From: an uncultured Pedosphaera sp.
GTDB lineage: Bacteria > Verrucomicrobiota > Verrucomicrobiia > Limisphaerales > Pedosphaeraceae
Direction of reading: 5' to 3'
Assembly (NCBI GenBank): GCA_903930565.1
Contig: CAIYZC010000228.1
Coordinates: 1-53,130 of the forward strand
DNA: 53,130 nucleotides
In this document: positions 4,359 to 52,862 of the stretch, piece after piece
Numbering within the stretch: the stretch's first letter is position 1
Layout: each line of letters begins with the position of its first letter
Notes under the pieces: generated by a model
What the model saw: only the letters and a program-made list of their open reading frames with translations
Told to the model about the DNA's origin: nothing
Database searches by the model: none
Position numbers and translations under genes: made by a program

Positions 4359-5693
4359 TCACTCCGCCGCGGAAGCCAACTGGACGGCCGCGGCTTGCAA
4401 CCCCCGCAAAATGGCGTCGGCCAAGGGTTCGGGAAAGCCGGGCGGGAGCACCCCCCGCACGGTTGCCAGGACCTGGGGGGTCTCGGCGCAGAGCTCGTCC
4501 AAGATCCCGGGCATCCCGGGCAAGCCACAGCGCTCCGCCGTGGCGAGCCAGTGCCGGCGGCGAATTTCCGCCCAATGGTAGTGGGGGCTTTTGCCGCTGA
4601 CCGCCATGGCCATTTTGATTTTCTGGCGGGCCAGCAGGCCGCGGCCATGACCGAGCACGGGGTAAGCCGACAAGACATCGTAACGCGGCGTCAGGTGGTA
4701 GGCGCCCCCGGGGCGGAGGAACAGACTGAAATTCTTGGCGTGCCCGTCGATGGCCGCAAGCAACCAAAACACGACCTGCGTGCGCAGAAAATCCCGGCGA
4801 TCCGCGGCGGCATGCTCCGATCCCTGCAACAGCTCCAAGATCCGCTGAATCCCCGGCCCGCCGTCCGGCACGTATTTGCAGGCGGAGGCGGTGGCCGTGG
4901 CCTGGCACAAATCCTCCTGGGGAACCCGCAACCAATACGACCCATCCTCTGAAAGTCGCCGGTCAAAGCGCTCCACGACCAGCGCTTTGAAATCCCCGAA
5001 GATTTCCATGCGGGAAGCGGCGGTGGGGACGCCGAACGCCCGCAGAATTTGCCCGCACAGCCATTCGTTCTCCACCGAGGTGGACAGGTCGATGCCCTGC
5101 GGGCTTATCCCCATGGGCAGCTTGAGGATGTGGGTGGTGGGCGTGGGCCCCCGGGGGCGCCACCAACCGCCGGCGTGCCAGAGCAGCGCGGTTTTCTCCT
5201 GCGCCCCGGCGAGACTGATTCGAAAGTCCGCCCAGGCGTTGGGCGCCACCTCGGCCATCCGCAAGCCGGCCACTTGGTTGAGCACTCCGCCGACTTCCTC
5301 CCGCGTGAGGGGCTCCCCGACGATACGGTGGATCGAATCCGGGGTGGCCTCCTCCGGGAGGATTTGCAAGGCGCCCACGCAGTCCTGGCCGATGGCATGC
5401 AGCAGGTCGAATGCTTCGTTGCGCGGCACGCGAAACCGGAGTTGGATGCGCTCGCGAATCTGGCGATTGTCGGGCAACAGGTTGTCGAAAAAAAACTCCA
5501 CCCTTTCGCCGCGGTAGGGCTCACCGGCGGCGCGCAACGGCAGCGAAAGCGAGATGGGCCGGGCGCGGGGCGAATCCAGCCACGACGCGGCATAGTCGAA
5601 CTCCTGCCGCCCGCCCGGCGGAGTCCGCCAATAACCAACCCGCTCCCCGTTCATCCACACGGCGAGGCAGCGTAATTTTCGCGCGCGCGCCAT
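4359..5693 (-). CDS. hipA: HipA-family serine/threonine kinase toxin
   Basis: The 444-residue protein has the HipA layout: an N-terminal subdomain with FFFDNLLPDN (67-76), an ATP-loop and regulatory motif SLAGAQEKTAL (160-170), and a kinase core with DGHAKNFSL (Asp316, Asn321) and RYDV (Asp339) as catalytic and metal-binding residues. HipA kinases phosphorylate targets such as glutamyl-tRNA synthetase and cause growth arrest unless held by HipB. The ATG lies 3 bp after the stop of the antitoxin gene, the usual translationally coupled order. All key kinase residues appear intact. The target cannot be read from sequence. Confidence 0.93.
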   Translation of the reverse strand: MARARKLRCLAVWMNGERVGYWRTPPGGRQEFDYAASWLDSPRARPISLSLPLRAAGEPYRGERVEFFFDNLLPDNRQIRERIQLRFRVPRNEAFDLLHAIGQDCVGALQILPEEATPDSIHRIVGEPLTREEVGGVLNQVAGLRMAEVAPNAWADFRISLAGAQEKTALLWHAGGWWRPRGPTPTTHILKLPMGISPQGIDLSTSVENEWLCGQILRAFGVPTAASRMEIFGDFKALVVERFDRRLSEDGSYWLRVPQEDLCQATATASACKYVPDGGPGIQRILELLQGSEHAAADRRDFLRTQVVFWLLAAIDGHAKNFSLFLRPGGAYHLTPRYDVLSAYPVLGHGRGLLARQKIKMAMAVSGKSPHYHWAEIRRRHWLATAERCGLPGMPGILDELCAETPQVLATVRGVLPPGFPEPLADAILRGLQAAAVQLASAAE

Positions 5694-47347: not shown

Positions 47348-48799
47348 TCAGGCCGCGGCGGCTTTGGCGGCGGCGAGATCGTCGCGCCGTTGGGCCATCG
47401 TGGTGAAGAATTCGTAACCTTCGCGCAAGCGGCGGACACAGACATTCTTGTCCTCGAGCATCGTCTTGATGATGCGCAGGATCGGCTTGGGCCGCAGGTA
47501 ATAGCGGCGGTAGAATTTTTCGACGGACTCGAAAATCTCCTCCTTGGACAGGCCGGGGTATTCGAGCGTGGATTGCTGCAAACCGTCGCCTTCGACGAGG
47601 TCGGTTTTGTCCTTCTTGGCGAACCAGCCATTCTGGCGGGCCATGTCGAACAATTCCGTGCCGGGATAAGGCGCGGCGAGGGAGACTTGAATGCTGAACA
47701 CATCCAATTCCATGGCGTAACGAATGGTTTCCTCGATCGTCTCGCGGGTCTCGACCGGCAGGCCGAGGATGAAGGTGCCGTGGATGATCACACCGATGTC
47801 TTTGCACGCCTTGGTAAAGCGCTTGGCTTCCTCGATGTTGATGCCCTTCTTGATGCGGTCGAGGATGGTTTGGTTGCCGGATTCGTAGCCGACCAGGAAC
47901 AGGCGCAGGCCGCAGTCCTTCATGAGCTTGATGGTCTCATAATTGACGTTGGCGCGGCTGTTGCAGGACCAAGTCAAACCGAGGGGCTTGAGCTTCTGGG
48001 CGATTTCCCGCGCGCGGGGCAGATTGGCCGTGAAGGTGTCGTCATCGAAGAAAAACTCGCGCACCTGGGGGAACAAGCGCTTGGCATGGGCCATCTCGGC
48101 GGCGACGTTTTCCGCCGAACGGACGCGGTATTTGTGGCCGCCAATGGTTTGCGGCCAGAGGCAGAACGTGCATTGCGCGGGGCAGCCGCGGCCGGTGTAG
48201 AGCGACAGGTAGGGGTCGTTCAGGTAGCCGATGGAGTACTTCTCGATCTGGAGGTCGCGCTTGTACACGTCCGTAACCCAGGGGAGCACGTCCATGTCAT
48301 GGATCAATTCGCGCTCGGGGTTGTGGACGACCTTGCCCTCCTTGCGGTAGCTCAAGCCGTTCACATCCGCCAAGGGGCGGCCTTCGGCGACTTCCTTGCA
48401 GGTGTAATCAAACTCCTTGCGGCCAACCCAGTCGATCGCGGGCGAGGCCTTGAGCGTCTCCGTGGGGAGCACCGCGGCGTGGGCACCGACGAAACCGATG
48501 GTCGTGGCGGGCCGCTGGGACTTGATGGCCTCGGCCACCTTGGCGTCGTTGCGCAGCGAAGGGGTGGAGGTGTGGATGATGACGTGGTCGTAATTCTTGG
48601 CCTCGGCGAGGCAGGTGGCCACGTCAATGTCGTGGGGCGGGCAGTCCATCAGCTTGCTGCCGGGCACGAGCGCCGCGGGCTGCGCCAGCCAGGTCGGGTA
48701 CCAAAACGAACGGATCTCGCGTTTGGCTTGGTAGCGCGCACCGGCGCCGCCGTCGAAGCCATCAAAGGACGGCGGGGATAAAAACAGGGTCTTGCTCAT
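47348..48799 (-). CDS. hpnJ: Hopanoid-associated radical SAM protein HpnJ
   Basis: The 483-residue protein has an N-terminal B12-binding-like domain (TLFLSPPSFDGFDGGAGARYQAKREIRSFWYPTWLAQ is the HpnJ signature) and the radical-SAM motif GCPAQCTFC (Cys206, 210, 213). A GLPVETRETIEETIRYAMEL segment follows. HpnJ-type proteins act in hopanoid side-chain tailoring, and some homologues build the cyclitol ether head group of bacteriohopanetetrol. It is about 1.5 kb from hpnH on the same strand, separated by an ATPase/TOPRIM-like gene pair. Confidence 0.93.
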   Translation of the reverse strand: MSKTLFLSPPSFDGFDGGAGARYQAKREIRSFWYPTWLAQPAALVPGSKLMDCPPHDIDVATCLAEAKNYDHVIIHTSTPSLRNDAKVAEAIKSQRPATTIGFVGAHAAVLPTETLKASPAIDWVGRKEFDYTCKEVAEGRPLADVNGLSYRKEGKVVHNPERELIHDMDVLPWVTDVYKRDLQIEKYSIGYLNDPYLSLYTGRGCPAQCTFCLWPQTIGGHKYRVRSAENVAAEMAHAKRLFPQVREFFFDDDTFTANLPRAREIAQKLKPLGLTWSCNSRANVNYETIKLMKDCGLRLFLVGYESGNQTILDRIKKGINIEEAKRFTKACKDIGVIIHGTFILGLPVETRETIEETIRYAMELDVFSIQVSLAAPYPGTELFDMARQNGWFAKKDKTDLVEGDGLQQSTLEYPGLSKEEIFESVEKFYRRYYLRPKPILRIIKTMLEDKNVCVRRLREGYEFFTTMAQRRDDLAAAKAAAA

Positions 48800-48842: not shown

Positions 48843-49301
48843 TCAATGGGTCAATAAATTCTGCAAATGTCCAAGGCGCGGGCTCTTCAGCTCCGCCAAC
48901 CGCTTCAACAACCGGCTCAGGTTGCCCAACCGCTGGTTGATCTCCGCATCCAAATCCCGAAGCTTGTCGCTCAAGCCAAATTCCGCCATTTCCACACCAG
49001 CGGATTTGGCCGTCTTGAGGAGCCATGGTTCCAACCGCGGGCAAATCACCAAAAGGCGGTTGCCGCGTTGGGCGTCCACCTTGAACCGAATATCGTACTG
49101 GCAGGACCGCTCCGCAAACCCCCGCAAATTGGCGGGCTCCGCGGAACCGGGATCCTCGTCCACCAAACCGATCACCGCCAGACGCTTCGCCAGGTGTTTT
49201 GCCACCCCGCCTTTGCCGTGGCAATGAATGATGTCCCGAGGCCCAACCCCGACCGACTGCGCCAGCGTCTCGTCCGGATAACACTCCAAATACAGATTCA
49301 T
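48843..49301 (-). CDS. Small TOPRIM-like protein paired with AAA ATPase
   Basis: The 152-residue protein opens with NLYLECYPDETLAQSVG, in which Glu6 ends a hydrophobic strand. It then has LAVIGLVDEDPGS with Asp48-x-Asp50 after a second strand, and a Gly-rich CHGKGG between. This Glu, Gly, DxD order is the TOPRIM metal-binding pattern. The C-terminal half is helical and basic. The ATG overlaps the stop of the ATPase gene by 4 bp (ATGA). In the OLD, Gabija and PARIS systems a TOPRIM nuclease works with such an ATPase, but those partners are larger. Nuclease activity is inferred from motifs only. Confidence 0.65.
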   Translation of the reverse strand: MNLYLECYPDETLAQSVGVGPRDIIHCHGKGGVAKHLAKRLAVIGLVDEDPGSAEPANLRGFAERSCQYDIRFKVDAQRGNRLLVICPRLEPWLLKTAKSAGVEMAEFGLSDKLRDLDAEINQRLGNLSRLLKRLAELKSPRLGHLQNLLTH

Positions 49302-50281
49302 TCCGGAACCAACCGGCCGAGGTTGAAAAAAGTGTCCACCCCCAACTCCAGCAATTCGGAAAGCTGCTCATCCGGGACTCGTTGCACCCGGGTTTCGTAA
49401 TTCTCCATCCGCGTGACGAACACCGCGAGATCGGCAATCGGCGTTTTCTCGACCAGCGCGGAGAGCAGATACGGATTGTGAGTCGTAAGAAAATACTGGT
49501 TGCGATCATCCAAGGCGATGCGTTCGGCCATCTGCTTGGTGTAAAATGGGAACGTGTTGGCCTCCGGTTCATCGAACAAAAGCGTGCAGTTTTGGTTCGT
49601 TTCCAACGCCGTCAGGAAAAAGACGATCCGGCGCAAGGTTTCCGAAACCGTGTTCCAAGGAAAGCTGAACAATTCTTCGCCGGTTTCCTTGGCAATCAGC
49701 AACTCACCACCCATTTGCTGAATCTGCAGGCGAAACCCCTTGGCGCGAAAAATTGTGCCAATCTGTTTGCGCAATTCCGCGTTGCCCGCCAACACCGCCA
49801 CCAAGTTATCGCCGAAGGGCGGATTGAGTTCCCCCGGCTGGGCATTGGGAAATGTAGCCATGCGATCGAACTGATAACTGCGTATCCGATGCTCAAATTT
49901 GCCTGATCTGACCAGCGTCTTTACTGCCGTGCCTAGTCGGTCCCATTGAAACTCGGCTCCCAAATCCGAACTTCCAGATTGGCCTTCATCCCCAAACCTA
50001 CCCAAAAATGAGTTGCCATCAAAACGAATCGTGCATTTCCAATTGCTTGCACAAATCGAAACAACATTTGAAAGATTCTGGTCGAAAAACAAATCGGCAG
50101 GGGAATTAAATCGCACGAAATCCGCCGGCCTAATCATTGCCTCCTTGGACAGCAACGACAGCGCCTCGAGGACATTCGACTTCCCGGCGTTCGGCTCCCC
50201 GATAAAGACATTCACGCGCTGAGCGTCAAACTCGGCAGCGCGAATGGACTTGAAATTCTCGATGCGGACGTGGTCGAGCAT
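49298..50281 (-). CDS. AAA ATPase of the AAA_15/21 (OLD/RecF-like) type
   Basis: The 327-residue protein starts MLDHVRIENFKSIRAAEF, typical of RecF/OLD-like ATPases, with Walker A GEPNAGKSN (28-36), Walker B CTLLFDEPEANTFP and a switch His in YFLTTHNPYLLSAL. A less conserved middle (about 60-200) replaces the coiled-coil arm. The ABC-type signature is weak (TVSETLRR). The start at 50281 fits the family; one at 50308 would overlap hpnH. It is translationally coupled to the small TOPRIM-like gene. Part of the gene (about 49900-50130) is clearly less GC-rich than neighbouring genes, hinting at transfer. Confidence 0.88.
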   Translation of the reverse strand: MLDHVRIENFKSIRAAEFDAQRVNVFIGEPNAGKSNVLEALSLLSKEAMIRPADFVRFNSPADLFFDQNLSNVVSICASNWKCTIRFDGNSFLGRFGDEGQSGSSDLGAEFQWDRLGTAVKTLVRSGKFEHRIRSYQFDRMATFPNAQPGELNPPFGDNLVAVLAGNAELRKQIGTIFRAKGFRLQIQQMGGELLIAKETGEELFSFPWNTVSETLRRIVFFLTALETNQNCTLLFDEPEANTFPFYTKQMAERIALDDRNQYFLTTHNPYLLSALVEKTPIADLAVFVTRMENYETRVQRVPDEQLSELLELGVDTFFNLGRLVPE

Positions 50282-50304: not shown

Positions 50305-51735
50305 TCACTCCGGCTTGGGCGCGGAGTTTTTGGCGGCGATTTTGGCCAGCAGCTCGTCGCGCTGGGTGGTGTCGCCGGTGCCGCAGGATTCGCCCGCCGC
50401 ATGGGTGTGGTCGTGCGCGTCGGCTTTGCGGCTGAAGGCGGCTTGGGCGCCGTTCATCGCGGCGCGGGGGGAATTGATCGCCGCCTTGGCTTCAGCCAAA
50501 TGACCCTTGCCGATGGAAACCCCGTTAAAAGCTTTCACTTTGAGACCGGGGAGGTACGGCTTGGGCTTGGCGCCGAAGTTGTAGCGGATGTTCTTCCAAG
50601 TGTCGCCGGCCTTGTAATTGGTGCCCAAGGCGCCGCTGGGATCGTACCCGCAATGGACCATGCAGTTTTCACACCGGGGATCGCGGGCGACGCCGTCCAC
50701 GACGCCGTATTTCTCCCACTGCACCTTCTCCAGCATTTCGTGGTAGTGCGGATAATGGCCGTCGGTCATCAGATAGCAGGGTGCCTTCCAACCGCGGATG
50801 TTGCGCGTGGGAATGGCCCAAGCGGTGCAGGTAAGGTCGCGTTTTCCTGCCAGGAACTCCTGATAAACCGTGGTGCCGAAAATGGTGAAGCGGGTGCCCC
50901 ATTCCTCGATTTTGGCGAATTTCTTGACCGTCATCGCACGCGTGAGGAAGAAGTCTTCCGGTTGCTTGTTCAGGCGGGAGACCATGTCCTTTTTGGCGGC
51001 GTCGTATTCGTAGCCCGGGGAGATGGTGTGGCCGTCGACTTCCAAGGCCGAGAAGTACTCGAACATTTGTTCGATCTCCTGCATGTCGGTTTCCTTGTAC
51101 ACCGTGGTGTTGGTCGCCACTTGGTAGCCGAGGAGCTTGGCCATCTTGACGGCTTCCACGCATTCCTTGAAGACGCCTTCCCGCTCCACAATCAGGTCGT
51201 GGGTGTATTCCAAGCCGTCCACATGGACATTCCAGTACATCCATTTGCTCGGTTGGATGGTGGGGCGGCCGTCGGATTTGCCCTTGCGGATCGTGTCGGC
51301 GTCTTTGTCGGTGATGAGCTTTTGGGCGAGCAATTCCGTGAGGGTTGGCTCCAAGGCGGTGGAATAGGCGGAGGCGAGATAATCGCGCATCTTCTTCCGC
51401 ATGAACACGCCGTTCGTGCAGATGTAGATGATGCGGCCCTGGGCCTGCAAACCGGCGACCAGTTCCTCAATTTTCGGATAAATCAGGGGTTCCCCACCGC
51501 AAATCGAAACCATGGGCGCATCGCATTCCGCCGCGGAGGCCAGGCAATCCTCCAAGGGCATCATGTCCTTGAGGTTGGTGGAGTACTCGCGAATCCGGCC
51601 GCACCCGGTGCAGGTGAGGTTGCAGGTGTGCAGCGGTTCGAGTTGAAGCACGAGCGCGAACTTGGGGGTGCGCCGGATCTTGTGCTTAATGATGTGACGG
51701 GCGATTTTGACCGTGAGGGCGAGAGGAAAACGCAT
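50305..51735 (-). CDS. hpnH: Radical SAM adenosylhopane synthase HpnH
   Basis: The 476-residue protein begins MRFPLALTVKIARHIIKHKI and has the SAM cluster motif CNLTCTGC (Cys38, 42, 45), LVLQLEPLHTCNL and the GGEPLIYPKI segment of HpnH. HpnH joins 5'-deoxyadenosyl to diploptene, the first step to extended hopanoids. The protein exceeds the usual ~340-380 residues. There is an insert of about 45 residues at about 130-170, and a C-terminal extension (about 435-476) containing a DAHDHTHAAGESC cluster of His and Cys. It lies 8 bp downstream of a small lipoprotein gene. Confidence 0.93.
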   Translation of the reverse strand: MRFPLALTVKIARHIIKHKIRRTPKFALVLQLEPLHTCNLTCTGCGRIREYSTNLKDMMPLEDCLASAAECDAPMVSICGGEPLIYPKIEELVAGLQAQGRIIYICTNGVFMRKKMRDYLASAYSTALEPTLTELLAQKLITDKDADTIRKGKSDGRPTIQPSKWMYWNVHVDGLEYTHDLIVEREGVFKECVEAVKMAKLLGYQVATNTTVYKETDMQEIEQMFEYFSALEVDGHTISPGYEYDAAKKDMVSRLNKQPEDFFLTRAMTVKKFAKIEEWGTRFTIFGTTVYQEFLAGKRDLTCTAWAIPTRNIRGWKAPCYLMTDGHYPHYHEMLEKVQWEKYGVVDGVARDPRCENCMVHCGYDPSGALGTNYKAGDTWKNIRYNFGAKPKPYLPGLKVKAFNGVSIGKGHLAEAKAAINSPRAAMNGAQAAFSRKADAHDHTHAAGESCGTGDTTQRDELLAKIAAKNSAPKPE

Positions 51736-51992: not shown

Positions 51993-52862
51993 GTGCGTGG
52001 CGCAACATCTATTTCCCGGCCGGCTTGTGAACTTGCCGTCAACCTTGCCTCCCTGGCCCGGTTGACGGCCGGATTTATCGTGGCCGTATGCTTGATCGGG
52101 GCGGCGCGGGCGACCGCCGGTGATGAGGCGCCCCGGCCGGCGTCGAGGGAGGGGGAAAAGGCGGCCTTGGCGCAATTCGCCCGGCACGCCGAAGCCGCCT
52201 TTATCGCCGCCCGGGAGCGCGCGGCCGCGCACGCCGACGACCTGGAGGCCGCCTGGCAATTTGGCCGGGCGTGTTTTGACTGGGCGGATTTCCCAGCCGC
52301 GAAGGCCCGGCGGGCCGAAATCGCCAACCTGGGGATCGCCGCCTGCCGCCGGGTGGTGTCCGCGGACACCAATTCCGCTCCGGGCCACTATTATTTGGCC
52401 ATGAATCTGGCGCAACTGGCCCAGACCAAAAGCTTGGGCGCCTTGGAGATTGTCACCCAGATGGAACGGGAATTCACCCGCGCCAAGGGGCTCGACCCCG
52501 CTCTGGATTACGCCGGGGCGGAGCGCAATTTGGGGTTGCTCTATCTGGAGGCGCCGGGCTGGCCCGTGAGCATCGGCAGCCACGCCAAGGCGCGGGAACA
52601 CCTGCACGCGGCCGTGGAGCGCGCGCCGGAGTACCCGGAAAACCACCTAAATCTGATCACCGCTTATGTCAAATGGGGCGACCGCGCCGCCGCCCGCAAG
52701 GAACTGGAAGTGCTGGACCACCTCTGGGCCCAGGCGCGGGCCACCCTGACTGGCGACGCCTGGGGCTCCGCCTGGCTGGACTGGGAGGACCGGCGGCGGA
52801 AACTGACCGAGGAGGCCAAAGAGACGCCGGCCACAACCGGCCACCGGCTGGGGCGCCCCTGA
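51993..52862 (+). CDS. Exported TPR-like protein
   Basis: The 289-residue protein from the GTG at 51993 has an N-terminal hydrophobic segment (about 24-42, LTAGFIVAVCLIGAARATA) and then helical TPR-like repeats (HADDLEAAWQFGRACFDWAD; APGHYYLAMNLAQLAQTKSLGALEIVTQMEREFTRAKGLDPALDYAGAERNLGLLYLEAPGWP; ENHLNLITAYVKWGDRAAARKELEVLD). A TTG near 52059 is a shorter start that puts the signal peptide at the very N-terminus. No named family; it resembles periplasmic TPR proteins such as TatT. It converges with the aminotransferase gene. Confidence 0.75.
   Translation: MRGATSISRPACELAVNLASLARLTAGFIVAVCLIGAARATAGDEAPRPASREGEKAALAQFARHAEAAFIAARERAAAHADDLEAAWQFGRACFDWADFPAAKARRAEIANLGIAACRRVVSADTNSAPGHYYLAMNLAQLAQTKSLGALEIVTQMEREFTRAKGLDPALDYAGAERNLGLLYLEAPGWPVSIGSHAKAREHLHAAVERAPEYPENHLNLITAYVKWGDRAAARKELEVLDHLWAQARATLTGDAWGSAWLDWEDRRRKLTEEAKETPATTGHRLGRP

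Follow-up and report, generated by a model that had tools for sequence, protein, structure and literature searches.

A two-gene ATPase and putative mini-TOPRIM unit between hpnH and hpnJ as a candidate conflict module

TOPRIM-type proteins are frequent partners of ATPases of the AAA_15/21 type, and AAA-TOPRIM_OLD pairs have been shown to act as antitoxin and toxin (PMC10440598). In AbiL and RloB-type pairs the effectors are separate from the ATPase (PMC10440598). In PARIS, AriB is kept on a hexamer of AriA, is set free when a phage protein acts as the trigger, and cleaves tRNA (PMC12409363). Class 4 OLD proteins, the class of PARIS, have been reported from bacteria only, and not every OLD protein serves defense: Cran1 has a role in the cell cycle of archaea (PMC12796447). 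Here we analyzed a gene pair of related design that sits among hopanoid biosynthesis genes.

The pair lies in a stretch of 53,130 nucleotides that was analyzed as a whole (the window). The ATPase gene (49298..50281, minus strand) encodes an AAA_15/AAA_21-type (OLD/RecF-like) protein of 327 residues from an ATG at 50281, with a GTG at 50308 as an alternative start. The small gene (48843..49301, minus strand) encodes a putatively TOPRIM-like protein of 152 residues. Upstream of the pair lies hpnH (50305..51735, minus strand; NCBIfam TIGR03470, 366 bits, cut-off 225), whose stop codon is 23 nt ahead of the ATPase ATG. Downstream, a gap of 43 nt separates the small gene from the start of hpnJ (47348..48799, minus strand; TIGR03471, 761 bits, cut-off 578), and all four genes share the minus strand. 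An earlier note on this DNA had described an ATPase overlapping a 152-residue protein by 4 bp, flanked by hpnH and hpnJ in the same orientation, and it was right on each point: both frames are intact and have 49298..49301 (minus strand) in common, and both flanking genes score above their model cut-offs. Its description of the pair as less GC-rich is clearly true of the ATPase gene (GC 0.525, GC3 0.64) and only slightly so of the small gene (0.586, GC3 0.74), as judged against hpnH (0.594, GC3 0.80), hpnJ (0.615, GC3 0.85) and the window (0.646).

Two other genes of the window are recorded here. BstC is the outer membrane protein of a sterol transporter, and a TPR protein encoded divergently from hpnH (51993-52862, plus strand), possibly involved in lipid transport, matches its model below the cut-off (81.8 bits, cut-off 350). 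About 43 kb from the pair, a toxin-type gene for a HipA-type kinase (4359-5693, minus strand) matches HipA_C at 158.6 bits and Couple_hipA at 87.6 bits.

The ATPase scores 64.7 bits against Pfam AAA_15 and 45.9 bits against AAA_21, above the curated cut-offs of 32.1 and 27, respectively. It carries Walker A (GEPNAGKS, residues 28-35) and Walker B (LLFDEPE, around residues 234-240), as expected from the earlier description of an OLD/RecF-like ATPase with complete Walker motifs. Together, profile and motifs place it in AAA_15/AAA_21. His 268, within TTHNPYLL, is conserved in the family. Profile comparison showed local matches to the AriA, AbiLi, HEC-01A and OLD models, and profile searches gave weak similarity to RecF, RecN and SMC.

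The small protein has no family match in sequence searches of Pfam, NCBIfam, PADLOC, PHROGs or the PDB. The earlier note had proposed comparing it with Pfam and PADLOC and had suggested that the pair may be unrecorded; the small protein matches nothing in either collection, in line with that suggestion. DUF7423 (E 0.033) and mad4 (E 0.047), each matched weakly by one member, were dismissed as noise. All ten members of the family share residues E6, C7, D10, H26, G31, D48, D50, P88, E91 and W93 without exception, and E6, D48 and D50 thus provide the conserved Glu and DxD of TOPRIM type throughout. TOPRIM domains carry a Glu after the first strand and a DxD after the third. In the small protein, E follows predicted strand 1, DxD follows strand 3 and an LExW motif follows a later strand, which is the order of TOPRIM and DUF4276 proteins. 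AlphaFold models built from only two sequences were of low confidence in both input orders (pLDDT 43.9 and 43.5) and show a strand-helix-strand-helix-strand order compatible with TOPRIM. Based on the motif and the predicted order of strands and helices, the small protein is likely a TOPRIM domain. The Glu...DxD pattern reported in the earlier note therefore holds in ten of ten members, but the TOPRIM assignment attached to it is only suggested, given a poor model and the profile comparison that follows.

We regard as unlikely the alternative that the small protein is another kind of effector or regulator, in which the acidic residues serve a different fold. In its favor, there is no significant profile match to any of the TOPRIM families compared (Pfam, DUF4276 and a PDC-M31B-like set). 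The hhalign comparison with short DUF4276 partners is suggestive (score 19.5, P 0.032; two of 100 column-shuffled controls scored as well), and the PDC-M31B-like set showed no profile similarity at all. However, the E, DxD and LExW positions follow the predicted strands as in TOPRIM and DUF4276, the hhalign alignment places LEpW on LEsW, and, as noted above, such ATPases often have TOPRIM-type partners (PMC10440598).

We found ten paired copies, nine in distant bacteria of one phylum and one in an archaeal pleolipovirus. Both proteins are ~30-57% identical to their counterparts in distant genomes; relatives of the small protein are encoded by a metagenome-assembled genome (L003, 57%), by the virus GahPV1 (L002, 42%) and by several genomes belonging to the order and class of the window. 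Purifying selection acts on both genes (pN 0.18-0.32, pS 0.68-0.86). Because the pair recurs in distant genomes and is under such selection, it is not a chance find. The ATPase lies beside the small gene in 10 of 10 copies, two of these ATPases being cut by a contig end. The two genes are separate reading frames in every copy that has both, and the 4-bp overlap is repeated in six loci (L003, L071, L009, L010, L078 and L072). A search of 298 genomes of the order with the ATPase alignment returned six carriers, clearly set apart in score from all lower matches; the small gene is downstream in all five that have a visible neighbor, the sixth (G462) ending at a contig end. Trees of the two proteins divide the copies into the same two groups. 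The pair is a real, conserved and mobile two-gene unit.

The window's phylum was covered by whole-genome searches and the other collections by single-query scans. Judged by the small protein, the pair occurs in 5 of 320 genomes of the order, 5 of 384 of the class and about 4 of 388 of the phylum, these samples overlapping in part. A further match in G177 (E 4e-4) was rejected because there is no pair at that locus. The viral contigs yielded no relative of the small protein. Prophage-like loci retrieved with the ATPase alignment were set aside as a different subfamily. In these viral contigs (L013, L014, L015, L016 and L018), the ATPase has a partner of ~220 residues with an EGITD...QxDTD pattern that resembles PDC-M31 and is weakly similar to DUF4276/RloB, forming another split ATPase/TOPRIM-like subfamily. 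Another viral contig (L012, 8001-8660) encodes a short relative of the ATPase (219 residues) with an altered Walker B and no small partner, which looks degenerate.

In GahPV1 (an archaeal pleolipovirus/provirus; L002, 5020-7174) the pair corresponds to gp15 and gp16 and is flanked by gp14 and gp17, paralogous genes for winged-helix regulators. The related provirus GacPV1 has one winged-helix gene, to which gp14 and gp17 are both related, and no pair at the corresponding place; the genes on both sides of the site correspond between the two. The pair is thus accessory cargo in GahPV1 too. The ATPase is unmentioned in the paper describing GahPV1, and our literature search found no paper on the ATPase with its 152-residue partner. 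Carriage between these paralogous regulators, together with the wide scatter of the family, could also reflect a selfish addiction or superinfection-exclusion module, in which the ATPase neutralizes a nuclease toxin and the role is to stabilize the carrier or exclude rival viruses instead of protecting the cell. This appears rather improbable, since most copies are chromosomal with no adjoining integrase or replicon gene, and the pair is found in none of 72,556 plasmid records and in one of 50,697 phage records.

Since a TOPRIM domain is also present in RecR, one may ask whether the pair processes DNA in the manner of RecF with RecR, acting on replication or recombination intermediates. The weak resemblance of the ATPase to RecF, RecN and SMC is in keeping with such a role, as is one copy located beside a topoisomerase-type gene, probably parC. 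We nevertheless consider it very unlikely, because the pair is sporadic (~1-2% of genomes), is absent from congeners and has an invariant Glu and DxD of catalytic type.

Between hpnH and hpnJ, the pair occurs in three genomes: that of the window, L003 (the same as G509) and G614. In G462 the ATPase is directly behind hpnH, and the location behind hpnH is common to four genomes, each of a different family of the order. The contigs of G450 and G478 lack the sequence upstream of the pair, and the gene downstream in G450 is not hpnJ; three genomes of one genus carry the pair beside acnA. We examined the stretch between hpnH and hpnJ in 51 further members of the order, and none of them has the pair there. 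The spacing comparison proposed in the earlier note gave a gap of at most 281 nt in 39 of these genomes, including one of the same genus (hpnH 92% and hpnJ 96% identical) in which hpnH and hpnJ are adjacent, as they are in other members of the window's family. The other 12 have gaps of 347-2056 nt. The pair does not show the constant presence with hpnH and hpnJ that would be expected of hopanoid biosynthesis genes, nor is it kept in all relatives as part of hopanoid metabolism, the outcome that the note had named as speaking against its own reading. The suggestion of an insertion into a housekeeping cluster agrees with the absence of the pair from the 51 genomes; the insertion is not a one-off, as the presence behind hpnH in four families shows.

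Other genes occupy the same junction in relatives. G456 and G455 carry DUF433 with DUF5615 (PIN-like), and G399 carries DUF5615. ParE-like toxins are encoded there in G437 and in G430. G430 and G472 have a near-identical ATPase, the G430 copy matching the candidate defense family HEC-04 (E 3e-155). The inserts of G396 and G418 encode nucleotidyltransferases, those of G465 and G473 acyltransferases, and that of G408 a small membrane protein. The junction loci in relatives are L036, L039, L042, L046, L055, L057, L108, L110, L113, L116 and L124. Given these assorted inserts, the hpnH-hpnJ junction is likely a landing spot, and much of the cargo is of toxin or defense type. A function linked to hopanoids, such as regulation of HpnH/HpnJ or membrane surveillance, would suit the position directly behind hpnH in four families, but it is most improbable in view of the 51 junctions without the pair, the copies that neighbor acnA or a topoisomerase-type gene or are carried by an archaeal virus, and the many unrelated genes at the same place.

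In the trees of the pair, the copies located in hpn operons are placed with the archaeal-virus copy, whether or not as a single clade. In a tree of 37 hpnJ sequences the three pair carriers are not grouped, and three changes are needed. Either one old insertion followed by many losses or repeated arrival, for instance by recombination through the hpn flanks, may account for the distribution.

We think it fairly probable that the pair is a translationally coupled two-gene conflict module in which the ATPase restrains a mini-TOPRIM nuclease; it would probably be an abortive-infection or toxin–antitoxin module. Several lines of evidence point this way: the intact motifs, the reciprocal linkage and sporadic spread of the two genes, and their carriage by one virus and absence from GacPV1. 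In other genomes, moreover, the site that the pair occupies holds genes of the ParE-like, DUF5615/DUF433, nucleotidyltransferase or HEC-04 type. Furthermore, the ATPase has local matches to AriA, AbiLi, HEC-01A and OLD, and PARIS and AbiL offer a mechanistic template. Against a conflict module, we note that no known defense gene lies directly beside the pair within the window and that the small protein has no significant TOPRIM profile match and an AlphaFold pLDDT of 44. A housekeeping role would likewise be compatible with a place in such an operon of housekeeping genes.

In such a conflict module, the small protein would be a minimal metal-dependent TOPRIM nuclease, with E6 and D48/D50 binding Mg2+ or Mn2+. 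By analogy with AriA and AriB in PARIS, an oligomer of the ATPase may keep the small protein inactive. On sensing an infection signal the ATPase would release it, and the freed protein might then cut tRNA or DNA, so that growth stops. The window's pair is predicted to be expressed by read-through from the hopanoid operon.

A broader claim, for which we judge the chances to be about even, is that the pair represents an unlisted family in which an ATPase guards a mini-TOPRIM nuclease of ~150 residues, a family that is common to bacteria and an archaeal pleolipovirus and comes to lie repeatedly at a toxin/defense landing site inside the hopanoid operon of one bacterial order. If true, it would be a compact addition to the growing set of ATPase and TOPRIM immune pairs. 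At ~150 residues, the effector would lend itself to structural studies of the way in which an ATPase restrains a nuclease, and its occurrence in bacteria and an archaeal virus would show that such systems extend across domains. The junction of hpnH and hpnJ would be a simple genomic place to seek further unlisted modules, and it would warn that genes within a hopanoid operon need not concern hopanoids.

Among known systems, PARIS (AriA/AriB, class 4 OLD) resembles the pair in having an ABC-type ATPase gene next to a separate effector gene, likely as sensor and effector, with the TOPRIM nature of the small protein putative. However, the small protein matches no AriB/DUF4435 model in Pfam or PADLOC, and the ATPase matches AriA just around Walker A and Walker B. 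The family is also present in an archaeal virus, unlike the class 4 proteins reported. HEC-01, a PADLOC candidate system of an AAA_15 ATPase with a DUF4276 protein, has the same two-gene order and a separate small partner, and the E ... DxD ... LExW order recurs in its short DUF4276 partners. It differs in that the similarity of the window's ATPase to HEC-01A is just local (~1e-15), and the small protein has no HEC-01B/DUF4276 match up to E 10 and is 152 residues long, as compared with about 190-230 in HEC-01. The window's own genome carries three HEC-01 pairs (contigs C661, C300 and C361; L084, L090 and L092) that match the models at E ~1e-60 to 1e-200 and have separate partners of about 196-230 residues, so the two-gene ATPase architecture is common.

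AbiL (AbiLi/AbiLii) and RloB-type pairs likewise combine an ATPase with a separate effector, which in their case is TOPRIM_OLD and was neutralized by the ATPase in tested pairs (PMC10440598), whereas the small protein has no RloB match in Pfam and the ATPase matches AbiLi partly. OLD proteins of classes 1 and 2 and Gabija GajA belong to the same ATPase superfamily and share the acidic pattern, provided that the 152-residue protein is TOPRIM, but they are single fused proteins (PADLOC models of ~530-690 positions) as opposed to two frames, and the pair lacks the helicase partner of Gabija. Cran1 is vertically inherited and apparently essential, while the window's pair is sporadic. The earlier view of known systems as having larger or fused nucleases is thus partly correct and too strong, because the effectors are separate in AbiL and RloB-type pairs (PMC10440598), and HEC-01 partners are separate and about 190-230 residues long. 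By sequence-based membership tests, the window's pair is not HEC-01, PARIS, AbiL/RloB or Gabija. A two-gene architecture of ATPase and separate effector is already known; what would be new is an unlisted family with an effector of ~150 residues and, by its motifs, a putative TOPRIM domain. By analogy, the best reading is that the pair may be an unlisted minimal variant of the two-gene kind in which an ATPase guards a TOPRIM nuclease, as represented by PARIS, AbiL and HEC-01.
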